Source of the DNA: Desulfamplus sp.
GTDB lineage: Bacteria > Desulfobacterota > Desulfobacteria > Desulfobacterales > Desulfobacteraceae
Reading direction: 5' to 3'
NCBI GenBank assembly: GCA_015232455.1
Contig: JADFZQ010000003.1
Location: 62,001 to 126,000 of the forward strand
DNA: 64,000 nt
Both the position numbers and the translations under genes were made by a program. Below the pieces are notes generated by a model. It did not search any database, was not told where the DNA came from, and was given only the letters and a program-made list of their open reading frames with translations. This document shows positions 20,628 to 28,872 of this stretch, one piece after another (the first letter of the stretch is position 1; each line of letters starts with the position of its first letter).

Positions 20628-22331
20628 ATGAGTGAAAAAATTTTAGGGCTTGAACTCTCTTCAGATTCATTGACAGCGGTTGTTATAAAAAGGTCTTTGA
20701 ATAAATACACTATTGCTGACTCTGCTTGGACACAATATGATTTAAAAACAGAGAAAAAAAATTCTCAAGAAGAGTCAAATTCTATTCCAAATTCTATTTG
20801 GAGATGTTTGAAATGGGATAGTGAATCGTTTGAAGATGCCCTTAAAACTCTTATATCAGAACTTGACTTAAAAGGATGTTCTAAATCTGCTTTGTGCCTA
20901 CCAGCTTATTTATTCTCATTTAGGACATTGAATATACCTTTTACCTCAGATAGTAAAATTCGCCAAATTCTCTCTTATGAGCTAGCATCTCACCTTCCTA
21001 TTAGCTATGCTGGCTATGTTTCTGATTTTATCCTATTAAAAGAATCTGATTTTATTGACCTCAACAATATTGATAATTCAACAAAAAAATCATCAAATAA
21101 ACCCTTCATCTTTACTGCATCTCTTCCTATTAATGTGATAGATACTTTGTTTTCTATCCTGAAACAATATGGGATAGAGCCTGAGCTTGTAACATCACAA
21201 GGGATTGTTGCAGCAAATTTCATTAATAATAATGTAATCAACAAAGAGAATAATAATTTAGTAAAAGATAGGACTAATTTAATAAAAGATAGAAATAATC
21301 TAATAAGCAAAATTTTAGATACTCAATTTAAAAAGAGAATTAATCAAAAGAGCGATAATGCTCTTAATGTTTTAATTGAAAGGAGAGTATCTGATACTGC
21401 CCTATCATTTATTTTAAATGGGAATATTGTAGCTATTCGCTCTTTTATTGGGGAGAAAGAGGACTCTTTTGTTGAAAAAACAGTGCAGCAGACAATAGTA
21501 GGTTTAAGCCAGAGATATAATATTGAAATAGCTAAAGTTAATAAAATTGATCTCTCTGATTATGGGGCATCTGTTAATCTTCTCAATGACCTTCATTTAG
21601 ATAATTTAGGTTATTTTACATCAAAGAATCTTCACTCAGATAATTTTCAAGCAAAAAATCTTCAATTAGGTAATTTTAATCAATCAAATGTTATTGAACA
21701 ATTAAATAATCTCCACTGGTTCAATGCTATAGCTGCTGCTTTTTGCTCAATTAAAAGAGAAAAGACAATCAATTTATGTCAGGATAAATATGCTAAAAGC
21801 TCTTTTTTTAATAAATTCAAAGATAGTATTATTAGCTTATCCATTTTTTCAGCAGCTCTTTTTATCTGCCTATTTATAAATATTGAATTTGATATTTTAA
21901 CTCTTAAAAAAGAGGTAAAAATTCTTGATAAAGCAATTACAGAGAGTTTCATAAAAACGTTTCCTGATGTGAAAAATGTGGTAGAGCCACTGATGCAGAT
22001 GCAAGTGAAAATAAGAGAACTTGAGCAGAGTGGTTTTGTAAAGGGAGGGCAGGGGAGTAATAATTCTCGTTCCAAGATAAGGGCTATTGAAATTCTGTAT
22101 GAGCTTTCAAACCGAATACCTAAAAATATTGATATTGAAGTTACCCGTTTTCTTTTGAGTGAAGGAAGATTGGTAATTGCAGGAAATACTGATAATTTTA
22201 ACACTATTGATAAGATCAAAACATTGCTTGAACAATATGATAGATTCAAAAGCGTTACCATAAATAGTGCAAATGCCGATAAAACAGGAAATAGGATTTT
22301 GTTTAATTTTATCGTTGAGTTTAAGGAGTAA
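20628..22331 (+). CDS. gspL: Type II secretion inner-membrane assembly protein GspL
   Basis: 567 residues. N-terminal actin-like (ASKHA) cytoplasmic domain opening ILGLELSSDSLTAVVIK, one transmembrane helix near residues 400-422 (IISLSIFSAALFICLFINI), and a periplasmic ferredoxin-like domain near the C-terminus. It links the GspE ATPase to GspM. Two low-complexity inserts, Asn-rich (about 203-230) and an LDN/KNL-type degenerate repeat (about 325-355), make it longer than usual. Normally gspM follows directly; here the next gsp gene lies 6 kb downstream beyond accessory DNA. Confidence 0.88.
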   Translation: MSEKILGLELSSDSLTAVVIKRSLNKYTIADSAWTQYDLKTEKKNSQEESNSIPNSIWRCLKWDSESFEDALKTLISELDLKGCSKSALCLPAYLFSFRTLNIPFTSDSKIRQILSYELASHLPISYAGYVSDFILLKESDFIDLNNIDNSTKKSSNKPFIFTASLPINVIDTLFSILKQYGIEPELVTSQGIVAANFINNNVINKENNNLVKDRTNLIKDRNNLISKILDTQFKKRINQKSDNALNVLIERRVSDTALSFILNGNIVAIRSFIGEKEDSFVEKTVQQTIVGLSQRYNIEIAKVNKIDLSDYGASVNLLNDLHLDNLGYFTSKNLHSDNFQAKNLQLGNFNQSNVIEQLNNLHWFNAIAAAFCSIKREKTINLCQDKYAKSSFFNKFKDSIISLSIFSAALFICLFINIEFDILTLKKEVKILDKAITESFIKTFPDVKNVVEPLMQMQVKIRELEQSGFVKGGQGSNNSRSKIRAIEILYELSNRIPKNIDIEVTRFLLSEGRLVIAGNTDNFNTIDKIKTLLEQYDRFKSVTINSANADKTGNRILFNFIVEFKE

Positions 22332-22632: not shown

Positions 22633-22892
22633 ATTCTCGAACAACATCCCCGTCAATTTATTGGCAAGAGATTATCTGTTTTGCCGATAAGTTTTACTCA
22701 AAAAAGCCAAAATATGCAGGTGTTGAAAAAAGTTTAGATAAGATTGTGGAGGAGATTAGAAAACTTGATCAACAAAATTCTTCTCATTTACCTATTTGGA
22801 ATAATAACTCTCACCTTGATAAAAAATCTGATTATAATAACAAAACCCACTCTGAAAGGTTTTCAAGCTGGGTAAAGAAGTTCTTAATATAG
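22623..22892 (+). CDS. Small hypothetical protein, possible partner of the preceding gene
   Basis: 89 residues, not assigned to a family. Opening PSIYWQEIICFADKFYSKKP suggests a helical domain, followed by a charged helix (EKSLDKIVEEIRKLDQQ) and a low-complexity Asn/Ser/His stretch. No signal peptide or membrane segment. Start ATG 22623 lies within the last codons of the preceding gene (10-base overlap), so the two are probably translated together. The pair could be a further toxin-antitoxin module or merely two cotranscribed proteins. Confidence 0.5.
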   Translation: MPINSRTTSPSIYWQEIICFADKFYSKKPKYAGVEKSLDKIVEEIRKLDQQNSSHLPIWNNNSHLDKKSDYNNKTHSERFSSWVKKFLI

Positions 22893-22943
22893 TCAATTGT
22901 AAAGAGATAGTTAATAAATGAAATTTTTACTACGGAGATAATA

Positions 22944-25280
22944 ATGAAAAAGTCTGTTGTTGTATGTTTAACAGTAATTAGTATTGTATGTTCGTATTTT
23001 GTAAATGCAGAAGCTTTTAATGGATTTAATAATTGTATTGAAAAGGAAATTTCAAATGCGTCAATCTCTATTGATGGCAATTTTAATGATTGGAATGCAG
23101 TTACATCTTTTATTTCTGATCCATCAGGTGATAGTGATAATACAATGACAGGAGACGATATAAAAGCTGTATATTTTGCAAAAGACGATAGTAACATTTT
23201 TATTAAAGTTGATTTATGGGAGAATTTGAATACCTCTTTTTGGAACTATCCGCCCCCAAATGATGGTAGATATAATGTTTCTATTAATAATATCTATGTG
23301 GGAATAGCATATAACTCCTCCTCTGGAAAATGGGAAATAGGTTATAATGGTTCAGGTGGTCCCTCAGGATTGAAGGGTTCATCTTATGTAGTCACATCAT
23401 CACAATCCATTGAATTAAAAATCCCATTTAGTTATCTTGATACATCAAGTGAATTTAAAGTAGTAGTAAATTCATCGAAAAATTATCCCACTGGAACGAC
23501 ATTGGATGAATCTCAATGTGTTCTGATAGGCGATGGAACCCAAAATTCCGCAACTGTCGTAACCGGCACCCCCGCCACCTCAATCACATCAACCACAGCG
23601 ACACTGAACGGCACGGTAAACCCTAACGGATCAGCAACAACATATTATTTTGATTATGGCACAACCACAAACTACGGCTCTAAAACTACCAGCCAAAATG
23701 CAGGTTCAGGGACAAGCAATGTATCTGTAACAGCAGATTTAACAGGGCTTGTTGCCAATACCACATACCATTTCCGTCTTGTTGCAACAAACAGCAAAGG
23801 TACAACCTACGGCAGCGATTATACTTTTAAAACTACTGAGCAAATAGTCCTTGGTCGTTTGCAAGTAACCCTTTCTCCAACAGACGCAATAACTGCTGGT
23901 GCTAAATGGCGAGTTGACTCGGGTGAATGGCAAAATAGCGGTGCTACTGTTTCCAATTTGACCGCTGGCACTCACACTGTAGATTTCAAAGATATTACTG
24001 GCTGGACAAAACCTGACAAGACAACCATTGATATTCAAGCTGGACAAACCGCAACTCTTACAAAAGAGTATATTTATATTGAGTGTTCAAAGTTGCAACC
24101 CCCAAGTGGCATTACAACGATTGAGATGACCTCCAATCCTACTGATGCACCTGTTTATATGGGCAGTGTAGTAACTGGCGGCAATCAGATGGAGTTATCC
24201 ATCAATTTTCCTGCTTACAGTAAACCAGTTGATATATGGATAGCGATTCGACTTCCTGATGGCAGTTATTACGTGGTTGATGAATCTGGGAAATTCCTGC
24301 CTTCCACATCTGCTTTTGCTCCAGTCGCCTCGGGTGTAGCCTGTGTTAATATAACAAAACAGCTTGTTCCACCGTTTGAAACCAGTACATTGGGAACTGC
24401 ATTTAATGGACTATGGTTTGTCTATTGGCTAATCGCTCCTGAGAGCAATGGTGACTTTGCTAAGGCTATGGGAAACGGCAAGTTTGTCTATGGTTCTTAT
24501 TCTTTTGAAGTAGCGGTGAAAGCAAAAACCTTCACCAACTCCCTTAAAATGACCTTCAATCTTATTCCAGCAGGAACATTTATGATGGGTTCGCCGGCAG
24601 ATGAGCTGGGTAGATTCTTAAACAGTATTACATCTGGTATAACGTCACATGAATCCCCCCAGCATAAGGTTACATTGACCAAAGCCTATTACATGCAGAC
24701 CACAGAGGTAACTCAGGGTCAGTGGAAAGCTATAATGGGGAGCAATCCTTCACGTTTCAGCAGTTGCGGTGATAACTGTCCGGTTGAGCAGGTGTCGTGG
24801 GATGATATTCAGGAATTTATCACCAAACTAAATGCGATGGGACAGGAAACATATGAGTTACCGACCGAAGCACAGTGGGAATATGCGGCTCGTGCAGGTT
24901 CAACAACTGCGTTTTCAAATGGAGGTATGACTGACCCTGAATGTGATGATGCCAATTTAGATGCAATAGGTTGGTATTGTGGAAATTCTCTATATGAAAC
25001 TAAACAAGTAGCTCAGAAGATTCCTAATGCCTGGGGGTTGTATGACATGCATGGTAACGTGATGGAGTTCTGTCAAGATTGGTATGCAAGTTATTCTACA
25101 TTTGACGCTATTGACCCTGTTGGTCCGGCTTGGTCAATGGGCTTAGGCACGGTTATTCGCGGCGGTAGCTGGATCGCCGACGCTATCTACTGCCGTTCTG
25201 CGCTTCGCGCCAACATCTACTCGTCTAACCGTAGCAACGGTGTCGGTTTCCGGCTCGTTTGCTCCGCAGGTCATCAGTAG
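22944..25280 (+). CDS. Secreted multidomain protein with FGE/C-type-lectin-fold domain, probable DGR target
   Basis: 778 residues. A signal peptide at 1-25 implies export. Order: a DOMON/CBM9-like beta domain (about 30-195; IDGNFNDWNAV), an Ig/fibronectin-like domain (about 200-298; TATLNGTVNPNGSATTYYF), a PEGA-like beta domain (about 303-378), a linker domain, and a formylglycine-generating-enzyme/sulfatase-modifying-factor domain (about 535-775; PAGTFMMGSP, PTEAQWEYAARAG, WGLYDMHGNVMEFCQDWY). The end, RGGSWIADAIYCRSALRAN...GVGFRLV, has the frame of diversity-generating-retroelement variable proteins, with NNC codons at exposed positions. Base composition changes from AT-rich (first ~600 bases) to GC-richer, suggesting mosaic origin. 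A display or ligand-binding role is inferred. Confidence 0.85.
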   Translation: MKKSVVVCLTVISIVCSYFVNAEAFNGFNNCIEKEISNASISIDGNFNDWNAVTSFISDPSGDSDNTMTGDDIKAVYFAKDDSNIFIKVDLWENLNTSFWNYPPPNDGRYNVSINNIYVGIAYNSSSGKWEIGYNGSGGPSGLKGSSYVVTSSQSIELKIPFSYLDTSSEFKVVVNSSKNYPTGTTLDESQCVLIGDGTQNSATVVTGTPATSITSTTATLNGTVNPNGSATTYYFDYGTTTNYGSKTTSQNAGSGTSNVSVTADLTGLVANTTYHFRLVATNSKGTTYGSDYTFKTTEQIVLGRLQVTLSPTDAITAGAKWRVDSGEWQNSGATVSNLTAGTHTVDFKDITGWTKPDKTTIDIQAGQTATLTKEYIYIECSKLQPPSGITTIEMTSNPTDAPVYMGSVVTGGNQMELSINFPAYSKPVDIWIAIRLPDGSYYVVDESGKFLPSTSAFAPVASGVACVNITKQLVPPFETSTLGTAFNGLWFVYWLIAPESNGDFAKAMGNGKFVYGSYSFEVAVKAKTFTNSLKMTFNLIPAGTFMMGSPADELGRFLNSITSGITSHESPQHKVTLTKAYYMQTTEVTQGQWKAIMGSNPSRFSSCGDNCPVEQVSWDDIQEFITKLNAMGQETYELPTEAQWEYAARAGSTTAFSNGGMTDPECDDANLDAIGWYCGNSLYETKQVAQKIPNAWGLYDMHGNVMEFCQDWYASYSTFDAIDPVGPAWSMGLGTVIRGGSWIADAIYCRSALRANIYSSNRSNGVGFRLVCSAGHQ
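25151..25270 (+). other. Candidate DGR variable region (VR)
   Basis: Encodes residues ~737-776. Constant scaffold codons (RGGSW; CRSA; R; GFRLV) alternate with codons ATC GCC GAC, ATC TAC, GCC AAC ATC TAC, AAC, AGC AAC. All of these are NNC, as expected when the adenines of AAC codons in a template repeat are randomised. It lies at the extreme 3' end of the gene, the usual VR position, and ends in a GC-rich stretch (GGTTTCCGGCTCGTTTGCTC) suitable as the initiation-of-mutagenic-homology segment. No template repeat or reverse transcriptase was found in the window. Confidence 0.75.
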
Positions 25281-25299
25281 GCAGGCTCTTTGGAAGGTG

Positions 25300-25430
25300 T
25301 CTGAATCACGGATTGGCAGAGGATTTAAGGGATTTCACGGATTGGAAAATCAGTGGAATTGGTGTAATCAGGTTAATCGGTGATTCTGAATCAGGATTTG
25401 CAGGATAAAAGAATAAGGCTAATCCTGAAA
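25300..25430 (+). repeat. Cassette-flanking repeat R1
   Basis: Opens CTGAATCACGGATTGGCA and contains GGGATTTCACGGATT, then AATCGGTGATTCTGAATCAG and GGATTTGCAGGAT...AATCCTGAAAAT. AATCACGGATT and AATCGGTGATT form inverted termini of a unit of about 90 bases. Related repeats lie at 26021, 26851 and 27509. It starts 20 bases after the DGR-like gene and runs to the ribosome binding site of the next antitoxin. Confidence 0.75.
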
Positions 25431-25462
25431 ATTTTATGATTTTTATAAATAAGGAGGGTTTC

Positions 25463-25717
25463 ATGCAAAAAGCAAGAATGAATCTAACTATTGATGCTGA
25501 TTTGATTCAGTTTATCAATGAATATGCAGAAAGCCAGCGTACTACTGTGTCTGAGGTCTTTACCCAATTTGCCTTGAGACTGAAGCTCCTTAAGGAGAAT
25601 GACGTGACGGAGAAAATTATAGCTGACAAAGACTTTTATGACGCACTCTTGGTAACTATGGAAAAAATCAAGTCTGGTACAATGAGATGGCATACTTATG
25701 ATGAGGTCTTTGAATGA
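25463..25717 (+). CDS. Ribbon-helix-helix type antitoxin
   Basis: 84 residues from the ATG at 25463, chosen because AAGGAGGG lies just upstream; an in-frame ATG at 25436 has no such site. The MNLTIDADLIQFINEYAESQ opening is a beta strand plus helix of the ribbon-helix-helix (DUF6364-like) class, and the C-terminal half is an acidic helical tail that would neutralise the toxin. Its stop overlaps the toxin start (ATGA at 25714). DNA binding and autoregulation are inferred from the family. Confidence 0.75.
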   Translation: MQKARMNLTIDADLIQFINEYAESQRTTVSEVFTQFALRLKLLKENDVTEKIIADKDFYDALLVTMEKIKSGTMRWHTYDEVFE

Positions 25718-26025
25718 ACCTCATATTCAGCGACTGCTTTGTTACTTCCCTCAAAAAATATAGTGCAATAAAGGAATCTGTGCGGAAAAAAGTTGATATG
25801 ATTGCAGATGCTCCTATTTCATTGGGCGAACCACTTAAAGGTAACTTTCAAGGTTACTACACTTGTTCGGTTAGATGTAATTTTTTAATCATTTTTCTTT
25901 ACTGTTCTATTTGCCGCAAAAAAGGGGATAACCTCATAGTTCTATGTTCAGACTGCTTGGATTGTGCTGACGATACTATCAAGTTTATTGATATAGGTCC
26001 ACATGATAAAATATATGGTATCTGA
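25714..26025 (+). CDS. RelE/ParE-superfamily (YafQ-like) toxin
   Basis: 103 residues. The pattern SLKKYSAIKESVRKKVDMI...PLKGNFQGYYTCSVRCNFLIIF and a C-terminal IKFIDIGPHDKIYG match mRNA-interferase toxins of the RelE/YafQ group (helical hairpin, then the beta sheet carrying 'L.G.....SVR..YRIIF' and 'GTHDEVY'). The G-H-D-x-V-Y end is retained as GPHDKIYG. Coupled to the upstream antitoxin by a four-base overlap. Its TGA stop lies within the first bases of repeat R2, so the repeat forms the gene's 3' end. An internal Cys-rich run (CSICRKKG...CSDCLDC) is unusual. Confidence 0.75.
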   Translation: MNLIFSDCFVTSLKKYSAIKESVRKKVDMIADAPISLGEPLKGNFQGYYTCSVRCNFLIIFLYCSICRKKGDNLIVLCSDCLDCADDTIKFIDIGPHDKIYGI

Positions 26026-26190
26026 ATCACGGATTGGCATGAATTAAGGGATTTCACGGAAAGAGTCGTGGCATTCGGGGAATCAGGTTATAATCTGTGA
26101 TTCTGAATCAGGATTTAAAGGATAGCGGGATAAAGCAAAATCCTGAAAATCCTTTCATCTTGGGTATCCTGATTCTGACGATTTATATAC
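26021..26190 (+). repeat. Cassette-flanking repeat R2
   Basis: Two linked units. The first runs from TCTGAATCACGGATTGGCA to ATAATCTGTGATTCTGA; the second is GATTCTGAATCAGGATTT...AAATCC...GTATCCTGATTCTGA, with GAATCAGGAT and ATCCTGATTC as inverted ends (26103-26175 approx.). It supplies the stop codon of the preceding toxin. Confidence 0.78.
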
Positions 26191-26208
26191 ATTAAGGAGG
26201 AAACTATT

Positions 26209-26436
26209 ATGCAGACAGTTGAATTTGAAAGCAAATCATATAATGGAATTATTGAAATTCCTGTAATCCATAAAGAATGGTATGACATACCTGTAAAAGT
26301 TATTCTTCTTGCAGACACCAAATTAAAGAACAGCAGCAAAGATACTGATAAATCAGAATTAATACGTTTTTTTGACAAGTTCAATGCAGATTTGAAAGGT
26401 TATCGGTTCAATCGGGATGAGGCAAATGAACGATAG
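26209..26436 (+). CDS. Antitoxin of a VapBC-type pair
   Basis: 75 residues with a good AAGGAGG site. The N-terminal part (VEFESKSYNGIIEIPVIHKEW...IPVKVILL) looks like a small beta domain, not a standard AbrB/RHH VapB, while the C-terminal tail (SELIRFFDKFNADLKGYRFNRDEANER) is a charged helix suited to toxin binding. Identified mainly by position: its last 11 bases overlap a PIN-domain toxin gene. Confidence 0.65.
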   Translation: MQTVEFESKSYNGIIEIPVIHKEWYDIPVKVILLADTKLKNSSKDTDKSELIRFFDKFNADLKGYRFNRDEANER

Positions 26437-26842
26437 ATATTTTTTAGATACCAATATCCTGATTTACAGCATAGGCAATATCATACCCAAGAAAACAACA
26501 GCTGTTAATCTGATAGGCAAAGATGCTGTTATTTCTACACAAATCATTACTGAATCTGCAAATGTAATGTCTCGTAAACTTAAATATGGTTATCTTGAAA
26601 TACGTGTCATAACCAACAGGTTTGCAGAGGAGATGAATTTACATATTATCACTCATCATACTATAAGAACGGCTTTTGATATTGCAGAGAAATACGGTTT
26701 TTCTTATTATGACAGTCAGGTTATTGCCTGTGCTTTAGAATCTGACTGTGCTGTTCTTTATTCAGAAGATTTGCAGCATAATCAGTTAATTGGAAATAGT
26801 GTCAGAATTATAAATCCGTTTCAGGCTTTTGCGAATATATAG
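26426..26842 (+). CDS. PIN-domain ribonuclease toxin, VapC-like
   Basis: About 138 residues. The PIN acidic residues are present: D in YFLDTNILIY, E in IITESANV, D in YYDSQVIACAL and D/E in LYSEDLQ. These should chelate Mg2+ for tRNA or rRNA cleavage. Start at ATG 26426 (preceded by GATGAGG) is preferred over 26417. It overlaps its antitoxin gene and is followed within 10 bases by repeat R3. Confidence 0.85.
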   Translation: MNDRYFLDTNILIYSIGNIIPKKTTAVNLIGKDAVISTQIITESANVMSRKLKYGYLEIRVITNRFAEEMNLHIITHHTIRTAFDIAEKYGFSYYDSQVIACALESDCAVLYSEDLQHNQLIGNSVRIINPFQAFANI

Positions 26843-26850
26843 GGCAAACT

Positions 26851-26993
26851 CAGATTAATCAGTGATTCAGAATCAGGATTTACAGGATAGAAGGATAGCG
26901 GGATAAAGCAAAATCCTGAAAATCATTTAATCTTGGGTATCCTGATTCTGATAATAATTCGGTATTGACACGGATTAAGGGATTTCACGGATA
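26851..26993 (+). repeat. Cassette-flanking repeat R3
   Basis: Same components as R2 in rearranged order: first the GATTCAGAATCAGGATTT...GTATCCTGATTCTGAT unit, then CACGGATTAAGGGATTTCACGGAT. The middle stretch AGCGGGATAAAGCAAAATCC is identical to R2, so the two copies are recently related. Confidence 0.78.
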
Positions 26994-27017
26994 ATTGCAA
27001 ATAAAGGAGATTCTAAA

Positions 27018-27260
27018 ATGCTATTGGAATACATTCATGCGGGACTTGGTTGTGTAAAATATCAAATATTACAAGATGACGGCAGTTATTATGGAGAAAT
27101 TCCACAATGCAATGGAGCTTACGCAAATGCAGATACACTTGAAAAATGCAGGAATGAACTAAGAGAAGTGCTTGAAGAATGGGTATTATTAAGAATTCAC
27201 AGAAATTTCAATCTGCCGACCATTCATGGTGTGGAGTTACTTATCAAAGAGGTTGCCTGA
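27018..27260 (+). CDS. hicB: HicB-family antitoxin (orphaned)
   Basis: 80 residues. Partial RNase-H-like HicB fold: DGSYYGEIPQCNGAYANADTLEKCRNELREVLEEWVL is the diagnostic strand-helix segment, and a short C-terminus IHGVELL follows in place of a DNA-binding domain. A GGAGA site precedes ATG 27018. Its stop overlaps the start of a hicA gene (TGATG), but that gene carries frameshifts, so this antitoxin probably has no cognate toxin here. Confidence 0.83.
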   Translation: MLLEYIHAGLGCVKYQILQDDGSYYGEIPQCNGAYANADTLEKCRNELREVLEEWVLLRIHRNFNLPTIHGVELLIKEVA

Positions 27261-27486
27261 TGCCTCCATTTGCTCCTGTAAAAAGAAAAGATATGATCCG
27301 ATATTTTGGACAAGTTGGGATTTGAGGGTCCTTACTCAGGCGGTAAGCATCAATTTATGATTAAAGATGATATTACTTACCATAAGACTTCCAAATCCTC
27401 ACCAGTCAGACATAGGAAAAGAGCTTTTAAGCCGAATTTTACGTCAAGCTGGAATCAGCAAAGATGAGTGGAGTGAGCAGCTTTAG
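27260..27486 (+). pseudogene. hicA: hicA toxin, frameshifted
   Basis: HicA can be read only across three frames: MPPFAPVKRKDMIRYF in the first; KLGFEGPYSGGKHQFMIKDD in the next after one extra T in the TATTTTGG run near 27300; and RLPNPHQSDIGKELLSRILR..DEW, ending at TAG 27484-27486, after a second break near 27387. The catalytic GGKHQF histidine survives, but no continuous protein is possible. The intact mRNA-interferase would have been about 75 residues. Confidence 0.85.
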
Positions 27487-27508
27487 CTCTGGCTGTTGAT
27501 GATTAAAA

Positions 27509-27594
27509 TCACGGGTTGGCAAAGGATTTAAGGGGGGATTTCACGGATTAAAAAATCAGTGGGATTTTTGGAATCGGGTAAATCCGTGATTCTG
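27509..27594 (+). repeat. Cassette-flanking repeat R4
   Basis: Single unit bounded by AATCACGGGTT (from 27507) and AATCCGTGATTCTG (to 27594), containing GGGGATTTCACGGATT and AAATCAGTGG as in R1. It separates the broken hicA from the next antitoxin gene. Confidence 0.75.
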
Positions 27595-27632
27595 ATATTA
27601 ATTAAATTTTATAATAAATTATCAAGGGTGCA

Positions 27633-27839
27633 ATGATGAAAGCCTATGAATGCTATGCCTCTATTTTGGCAGACGGTCAATTATTCATTCCAACGGAAAT
27701 AAAAAACAAATTAAAAGCTCCATCAAGAATAAGGTTAATGATTTTGGTCGATGAAGACGACACTGAATGGAATGATTTTACTATGAACCAATTTCTTAAT
27801 GGATACTCTGAGGAAGATGCAATCTATGACAACTTATAA
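27633..27839 (+). CDS. Antitoxin of a MazF/PemK-like pair
   Basis: 68 residues. The N-terminal YASILADGQLFIPTEIKNKL resembles a swapped-hairpin AbrB/MazE-like DNA-binding strand pair (the 'G.L.IP..I...L' pattern); the C-terminal acidic helix (DDTEWNDFTMNQFLNGYSEEDAIYD) would mask the toxin. Double ATG start behind AAGGG. It overlaps the toxin gene by 14 bases. Confidence 0.75.
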   Translation: MMKAYECYASILADGQLFIPTEIKNKLKAPSRIRLMILVDEDDTEWNDFTMNQFLNGYSEEDAIYDNL

Positions 27840-28146
27840 GTTTGGAGATGTTATTTTGATTGGCTTTCCTCACACAGATTTTCACAATCTTTCAAAAAGA
27901 CCCGCTGTGATTCTTTATGATTCAGGTGACAAGGATATTCTTGTTGCAAGAATAACAACTCAAAAATATACAACAGAATCAGATTATAAAATTGAAAATT
28001 GGAAAGAATCTGGTTTGATTACAGAGTCATATATACGGCTTGGCAAGATGGCTACAATAGAAAAATGCCATATTTTAAAACTGTTAGGGAGATTAAATGA
28101 GGTGGAACAGCTAAAAGCAATATTAAAAAAAGTTTTTAAATTATAA
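27826..28146 (+). CDS. MazF/PemK-like endoribonuclease toxin
   Basis: 106 residues from ATG 27826 (GAGGAAG upstream); a longer in-frame start at 27799 lies deep inside the antitoxin gene. Seen: the SH3-like opening KFGDVILIGFPHTD, LSKRPAVILYDSG (the MazF 'KRPALVLS' strand with the conserved Arg-Pro), ITTQ, and TESYIRLGKMATIEKCHI, matching 'S.v....i.tl....i'. Expected to cleave RNA. It is the last intact module of the array. Confidence 0.83.
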   Translation: MTTYKFGDVILIGFPHTDFHNLSKRPAVILYDSGDKDILVARITTQKYTTESDYKIENWKESGLITESYIRLGKMATIEKCHILKLLGRLNEVEQLKAILKKVFKL

Positions 28147-28157
28147 CCTCTGATTGC

Positions 28158-28325
28158 AAAAAAAAAATTGAAGAGAGTCATACCAGCAAACCGAAGGCTC
28201 AGGCGTTATATTCAGTGCGTATTGGGCTATCATATAGGGCGTTAGGGCTATTCAAAGCAGATACTGTAACATGGTTTTGGATAGGCGATCACGATTCTTA
28301 CGAATATCTTATTAATGAGCTTTGA
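28158..28325 (+). pseudogene. C-terminal remnant of a RelE/ParE-type toxin
   Basis: In-frame reading KPKAQALYSVRIGLSYRALG, then FKADTVTWFWIGDHDSYEYL, ending TGA at 28323-28325, is the C-terminal half of a RelE/HigB-type toxin ('SVRI...YRALG...WFWIG.H..Y'). No start or N-terminal half is present; it follows an A-run. It ends 14 bases before gspM and leaves gspM its ribosome binding site, so it marks the right edge of the accessory block. Confidence 0.8.
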
Positions 28326-28338
28326 AAAGGATCATGCA

Positions 28339-28872
28339 ATGTTTTCAAGTCTTTCTCGCCGTGAACAAGATGTGGTGTTAATTGGGAGCGTGGCAATCAT
28401 AGTGTTTATTTTGATTCAGTTTATCCTATTACCCACTATTGATAAGCGTCAATCATTTATCAATAAGGTTAATGCAAAAAAAGATGCTCTAAAACAGATG
28501 GTAGAGCTTCAAAGCCATTATCAAGAGATACAAAGCTCTGTTATGGCAGAAAAGATATTAGTTATGAAAAGAGATAAATTATTTACACTGTTTTCATTTT
28601 TAGACAGGCTTGCACAAGAGAGCAATGTTAAAGATAATGTCTCATACATGAAGCCGTTTAAAAGGCAATCAGAGGATAGCGAGGTTACTTTCTCAAGTGT
28701 TAAAGTAAAATTAGATGAAGTTGTAATAAGACAGGTTGTTGATTTTATCTATAAAATAGAGAGTTCTGAAAATCTTGTATATATATCATCTTTATCTCTT
28801 TCACGAACAGGAGAAAATGGTCAATTAAGTGCCATAATTGAAGCTGAAACTATCGTTGCACCAGAAAATTAA
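28339..28872 (+). CDS. gspM: Type II secretion inner-membrane protein GspM
   Basis: About 177 residues: N-terminal LSRREQDVVLIGSVAIIVFILIQFIL (short cytoplasmic tail plus one transmembrane helix), a long coiled region, and a ferredoxin-like periplasmic domain. This is the GspM layout (partner of GspL). ATG 28339 has AAAAGGA upstream and is preferred over ATG 28315, which lies in the toxin remnant and lacks such a site. It is separated from gspL by the 6-kb accessory block, so it needs read-through or a new promoter. Confidence 0.85.
   Translation: MFSSLSRREQDVVLIGSVAIIVFILIQFILLPTIDKRQSFINKVNAKKDALKQMVELQSHYQEIQSSVMAEKILVMKRDKLFTLFSFLDRLAQESNVKDNVSYMKPFKRQSEDSEVTFSSVKVKLDEVVIRQVVDFIYKIESSENLVYISSLSLSRTGENGQLSAIIEAETIVAPEN

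Follow-up and report, generated by a model that had tools for sequence, protein, structure and literature searches.

The 3′-terminal part of a 778-codon gene is very probably a variable region (VR) written by a diversity-generating retroelement (DGR); its present state as an orphan is put forward with more reserve. Most likely the gene is a remote DGR target of the orphan kind, and it is probably frozen as a single variant. It lies in a stretch of 64 kb (G000:C33:62001-126000, where G000 is the genome of the studied stretch), called the window below, and all positions without a contig label are those of this window. The G000 assembly comprises 4.35 Mb in 82 contigs, with a completeness of 98.47%.

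Results

The target gene and its protein

The target gene occupies 22944..25280 on the + strand and is an open reading frame encoding 778 amino acids. Judged by eye, the N-terminus of the protein looks like a Sec signal peptide. Residues 540-772 (24561..25259, + strand) form an FGE-sulfatase domain (PF03781, E 2.4e-40), while the Pfam profile search gave a weak fn3-like part under the cut-off and found no kinase domain in the protein. Among solved structures, the top sequence match was 2y3c, the Treponema denticola variable protein 1 (E 1.5e-34), which we take to be TvpA; PvdO (1.5e-19) and FGE (9.2e-14) ranked lower. The alignment with 2y3c extends through the RGGSW...GFRL segment, and a fold of the CLec/FGE type would, from this sequence relationship, bear the VR. 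The C-terminal tail of the protein is RGGSWIADAIYCRSALRANIYSSNRSNGVGFRLVCSAGHQ, followed by the stop codon, and reproduces the pattern RGGSW-x6-CRSA...GVGFRLV that the sequence-only reading had described. A PF03781 search of G000 returned seven FGE genes.

Codon signature of the variable region

The VR core, from RGGSW to GFRL, spans 25158..25256 (+ strand), RGGSW beginning with codon 739 at base 25158. It contains 14 template-type codons (744-746, 748-749, 754, 756-759, 762 and 764-766). Twelve of these (744-746, 748-749, 756-759, 762 and 764-765) had been named beforehand as exposed positions using NNC codons, and all 12 do; the other two, 754 (CTT) and 766 (GGT), are AAY-type in real templates and end in T here. 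Codons ending in C thus make up 12/14 of the template-type codons, against a fraction of 0.167 among the 738 codons before RGGSW (P = 3e-8). A mask of the 14 codons, drawn after the gene had been seen and with real templates as a guide, was slid over both strands of the window, and a score of 12 was reached once in about 127,800 positions; the single score-12 position within the 778-codon gene is the VR. The segment had also been described as GC-rich, which agrees with a GC fraction of 0.60 in 25159-25280 versus 0.41 in the preceding part of the gene and 0.45 in the FGE part.

The core is followed by a 24-base 3′ tail that includes the stop codon (25257..25280, + strand). This tail is conserved and common to the VRs of other genes of the genus, with no difference in C127a and C140 of the sister genome G005, one in C127b of the same genome and two in G004. 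It is a candidate homing-end homology. No second copy of the 20-base 3′ homology stretch was found in the 64-kb window at ≤3 mismatches.

Template-type codons were also counted in other FGE tails of G000, the count taking in five of the seven genes, with C22 and C13 left out. Besides the window VR, C-ending codons numbered 12/14 in the gene at 185k of C33, 6/14 in C67, 4/14 in the gene at 180k of C33 and 1/14 in C66. The signature is kept in two of the five counted tails, those of the window and of C33 185k. The tails of C67 and C33 180k may be old, drifted targets, or may never have been targets. The C66 gene has the protein motif without the NNC codon pattern and is not DGR-target-like.

Differences at adenine columns and codon positions

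Adenine columns were defined from 15 templates of 13 genomes that belong to other families of the same order (Desulfobacterales). Left out of this set were the second copies in G191 and G059 and the templates of G001, G005 and G012. At thresholds of ≥80% A and ≤20% A, the alignment gave 23 adenine and 64 non-adenine columns, with 9 mixed ones; this column set is not fully blind, because a query derived from the window VR had served to find the 15 templates. The window VR differed from G005 C140 at 17/23 adenine columns and 9/64 others (Fisher P 2.9e-7), and from G005 C127a at 16/23 and 9/64, respectively (P 1.7e-6). The corresponding values were 13/23 and 11/64 for the 185k gene of its own genome (P 0.0007) and 12/23 and 11/64 for G004 (P about 0.002, that is 0.0021). 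Five VRs, the G004 C51 sequence being kept as one of them, were compared pairwise, and 10/10 pairs showed an excess of differences at adenine columns; 15 of the 18 varying non-adenine columns were third codon positions. The signal was weaker against the majority template of the order (13/23 vs 15/64, P 0.008). With columns taken from 15 foreign templates, the sequence comparison thus points to a 3′-terminal VR that differs at template adenines.

Third codon positions were least identical upstream of the VR and most identical within it, rising from 0.56 to 0.78 for G005 C140 and from 0.47 to 0.78 for C127a. For C140, the VR core had 25/32 and the tail 8/9 identical third positions, versus 105/188 upstream (P 0.004); for C127a, 25/32 and 8/9 were identical versus 81/172 (P 1e-4). 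Codon positions 1 and 2, compared with C140, showed an identity of 40/64 in the VR, lower than the 315/373 found upstream (P 1e-4), and the same test was not significant with C127a (P 0.29). Against the 185k paralogue of G000 itself, neither codon-position test reached significance (P 0.12 and 0.67).

Searches for a reverse transcriptase and a template

The RVT_1 profile gave no match in G000, with 3 of 14 control genomes positive, and the DGR reverse transcriptase (RT) of G005 as a query gave no match in G000 at E≤0.001. RVT_1 matches were present in 36 of the 58 genomes of the relatives set, which includes G000, and G005 RT matches in 6/10 genus genomes. The 96%-complete G004 was without a G005 RT match, though it has a VR-like fragment.

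At E≤0.001, queries with the VR and with an inferred template retrieved from G000 the window VR and two other FGE tails only. Four further matches of the inferred template in this genome, of 14-23 bases and with E above 1, are at chance level. No VR:TR pair was found within G000, nor a template matching the window VR in the 10 genus genomes, G000 included. The search for a template beside a DGR-type RT throughout the genome, as proposed by the sequence-only reading, therefore found neither in the G000 assembly.

A comparison of the inferred template with 389 order genomes, in which the two best candidates of each genome were scored, yielded 20 matches outside the genus. Eighteen of these were N-rich templates, a class favoured in this search because AAC runs had been built into the inferred template, and 16 had a G005-RT match in the fetched flank. 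The loci without an N-rich template were L143 and L146, and those without a flanking RT match L137, L143, L146 and L149; a DGR-type RT motif was present in 12 of the 18 extra-genus loci examined. One exact 21-base pattern had no match in IMG/VR, and the template query had none in phage sequences at E≤1e-3. The inferred template query also matched seven plasmid records, six of them cyanobacterial by name, which are perhaps DGR templates.

A complete-looking retroelement in a sister genome

G005 belongs to the same genus, its glycerol kinase being 97% identical to that of G000, and its sequence contains a complete-looking DGR. Contig C114 holds, beside glpK, a target gene of the FGE type together with a template and the genes for an HRDC protein of 166 aa and an RT of 334 aa; the RT bears the motif IGNLISQ, presumably the DGR form of this RT motif. 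The cognate VR departs from the template at 20/29 adenines and at 0/70 other core sites. For the remote VRs, the count is 18/29 adenines in C127b and 19/29 in C120, each again with 0/70 other core sites. Sequence comparison thus gives good support for diversification of the G005 remote targets in trans from a distant template. Among the 16 non-adenine sites in the 18 tail bases beyond the core, the cognate VR differs at 2, C127b at 7 and C120 at 6, and C127b has a core that matches the G005 template with a tail nearly of the window type. Two other genomes of the genus gave comparable figures against their own templates: 15/28, 12/28 and 17/28 adenines with 0, 0 and 5 of 68 other sites in G001, and 20/32 and 21/32 adenines with 0/64 others in both VRs of G012.

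In the G005 assembly, the VRs of the cognate C114 gene (L092 9880-10728) and of C140 (L095 5592-8873) are out of frame with the FGE part, which may be real decay or an assembly error.

The G005 template was considered as the source of the window VR and rejected: 19/29 adenines differ between the two, but so do 19/70 other core sites, which shows that it is not the template of this VR. A full match to the window VR at non-adenine sites was absent in the G005 template and in the majority sequence of the 15 order templates. The match on G004 C51 was likewise discarded as a template, as its codons are not N-rich and its frame holds no ORF of at least 150 aa; its DNA match to the FGE gene is limited to the last ~137 bases. 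The VR-like fragment of G004 (L094 7752-8306) lies, by eye, inside an insertion-sequence-like ORF, in another frame and with no FGE frame ahead.

The flanks of the G005 C114 site align with G000 C55 at 92-98% on both sides. Between them, G005 has ~3.6 kb with the DGR, whereas G000 has ~0.3 kb of other sequence, on a single contig and with no N. The DGR at the glpK site may have been either lost in G000 or gained in G005.

An insertion in the type II secretion operon

The target gene is part of a ~5.5-kb segment (22647..28206, no strand assigned) that is missing from the syntenic G005 locus and separates gspL from gspM. Profile search and tblastn identified a gspL-type gene with a PilN domain upstream of the insertion (20628..22331, + strand) and a gspM-type gene (T2SSM) downstream (28315..28872, + strand). 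Besides the target gene, the segment contains a DUF6364-like gene (below the Pfam cut-off) and PIN, UPF0150 and PemK genes. Measured between tblastn ends, the gspL-gspM gap is 48-133 bp in G004, G003, G001 and G002; in G005 it is 560 bp and holds one small ORF. The two genes are therefore close in 5/5 relatives with both on the fetched stretch, a count that takes in neither G009, whose contig stops short of gspM, nor G006-G008. In G000 they are ~6 kb apart, and the simplest reading is that the interrupted state is the derived one. Contig C115 of G005 holds, among other genes, relatives of the first small ORF of the segment (76% identical) and of its PemK (96%), and pieces of the segment therefore move. 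The target protein has a single 143-residue match (29%) on C115, to the part before the FGE domain, and no FGE part there. The location of the gene within a secretion operon suggests that the protein may be exported by the type II system.

A dispersed palindromic repeat

A dispersed palindromic repeat of ~90 bp starts 20 bp past the stop codon of the target gene (25300..25390, + strand). Further copies lie at 26021-26107 and 27505-27595, with a partial one at 26961-26994, and all copies found in the 64-kb window are within the 5.5-kb insertion. The palindrome follows the stop codon by 14-20 bp in four VR genes (window, G005 C127a, C127b and C120) and by 75-136 bp in the 180k and 185k VR genes; it was not found after G005 C114, C140 and C119, nor after the VR of G004. 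This gives 6/10 VR genes searched, a count that omits C67, whose VR is internal, and the association with VRs is unproven because the repeat is also common elsewhere in the genus. The hairpins described for phage DGRs are short, GC-rich and of the GRNA-loop type (PMC3240598), and the ~90-bp palindrome is not of that type. We regard it as improbable that the palindrome is a mobile target-site cruciform, by which FGE genes gaining a VR tail together with a palindrome become trans targets of a resident DGR. If this were true, orphan targets would persist and could be diversified again once a DGR enters.

Discussion

Origin and present state of the variable region

The sequence-only reading had placed a DGR variable region at the end of an FGE/C-lectin-type gene, and the NNC codons, the adenine columns and the 2y3c match bear this out. 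It had further proposed a remote VR diversified in trans; the DGR origin stands, whereas no RT or template acting in trans was found in G000. Against its own proposal it had set the combination of a genome free of RT and template with strain differences spread evenly over all bases. The absence is what we observed in the assembly, but the differences from related VRs are biased towards adenine columns.

We propose that the VR would have been written at the 3′ end of the gene through error-prone reverse transcription, with an AAC-rich template whose adenines gave random bases, and integration of the product beside the constant 3′ stretch. The protein would be exported and, by analogy with its family, would show a changeable ligand-binding surface as in the Treponema protein. 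A segment that also bears toxin-antitoxin-like genes probably brought the gene into the type II secretion operon. The template and RT may have been lost, may never have come along or, less likely, may lie in the unassembled part.

That last case leads to the one competing reading to which we give appreciable, if low, probability: the gene could be an active remote target, still diversified in trans by a DGR that sits in the unassembled part or on an element that dropped out of the assembly. The window and C33 185k VRs keep 12/14 NNC codons and thus show no drift towards the AT-rich codon usage of G000, the remote targets of G005 are written from a distant template, and an assembly of 82 contigs is 98.47% complete; these points agree with continuing activity. 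G000, however, is without an RT at E≤0.001 and without a template, and the site of the G005 DGR is assembled on one contig in G000 and holds no DGR. On balance, we clearly prefer the orphan state to an active target.

Readings that dispense with a DGR appear far less probable. The RGGSW...CRSA...GFRLV end could be the conserved end of an ordinary FGE fold, with codons due to compositional chance or to transfer from a GC-rich donor, given that the motif is partly common to FGE-fold proteins not known as DGR targets (FGE, PvdO) and that the C66 gene of G000 has it without the codon pattern. This is very unlikely, since the differences cluster where other templates have adenine and spare the third codon positions; nor would transfer from a GC-rich donor be expected to keep synonymous sites across non-orthologous genes while altering amino acids. 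We give equally little credence to gene conversion among paralogous FGE tails, with surface residues varied by selection alone and no reverse transcription. It would explain why scaffold and tail are common to non-orthologous genes, but it would copy variable and fixed sites together, whereas here mainly template-adenine columns differ, and within the genus this pattern goes together with a template and an RT.

G005 and G000 form a presence/absence pair, the former with a complete-looking DGR and trans-written targets, the latter with targets but an equivalent site that holds no DGR. Pairs of this kind permit dating of DGR loss or gain, and tests of how long an orphan target retains template codons. 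Surveys keyed to VRs that adjoin a reverse transcriptase overlook orphan targets like this gene. In our literature search, no DGR paper was found under 'without reverse transcriptase', and 'orphan' with variable repeat had another meaning.

Comparison with known systems

Remote variable proteins of cyanobacteria are reported to be CLec domains alone or fused to Ser/Thr kinases (PMC7517822). The fusions resemble the kinase-FGE proteins with VR-like tails encoded at C33 180-187k of G000, unlike the window protein, which is of the secreted type and in which no kinase domain was found. Genes for Ser/Thr kinases and kinase-FGE proteins cluster in G000:C33:170000-187500 (L004), together with genes that look, by eye, FHA-like and phosphatase-like. 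This region is largely syntenic with G005:C127 (L098), with blocks rearranged between the two genomes.

Thiohalocapsa PB-PSB1 is reported to have incomplete DGR loci and remote targets, as in the present case, and some of its targets agree with a distant template at every non-adenine site, like those of G005 (PMC10907252). RTs and templates are present elsewhere in its genome, whereas none were seen in G000.

A close parallel comes from T. denticola. Isolates without RT and template are reported to keep target genes, with differences mostly at adenine sites, and these leftover targets were read as remains of DGR loss (PMC4891356). The likeness comprises an FGE/CLec-type domain by sequence, a 3′-terminal VR, several remote targets, an HRDC-type accessory as in the sister genome G005, and target genes remaining in genomes without RT or template (PMC4891356). 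The host is another one, and the orphan gene lies here in a toxin-antitoxin-like segment within a type II secretion operon, unlike the T. denticola targets. Since orphan targets have already been reported in T. denticola (PMC4891356), the window gene belongs to a known type of case.
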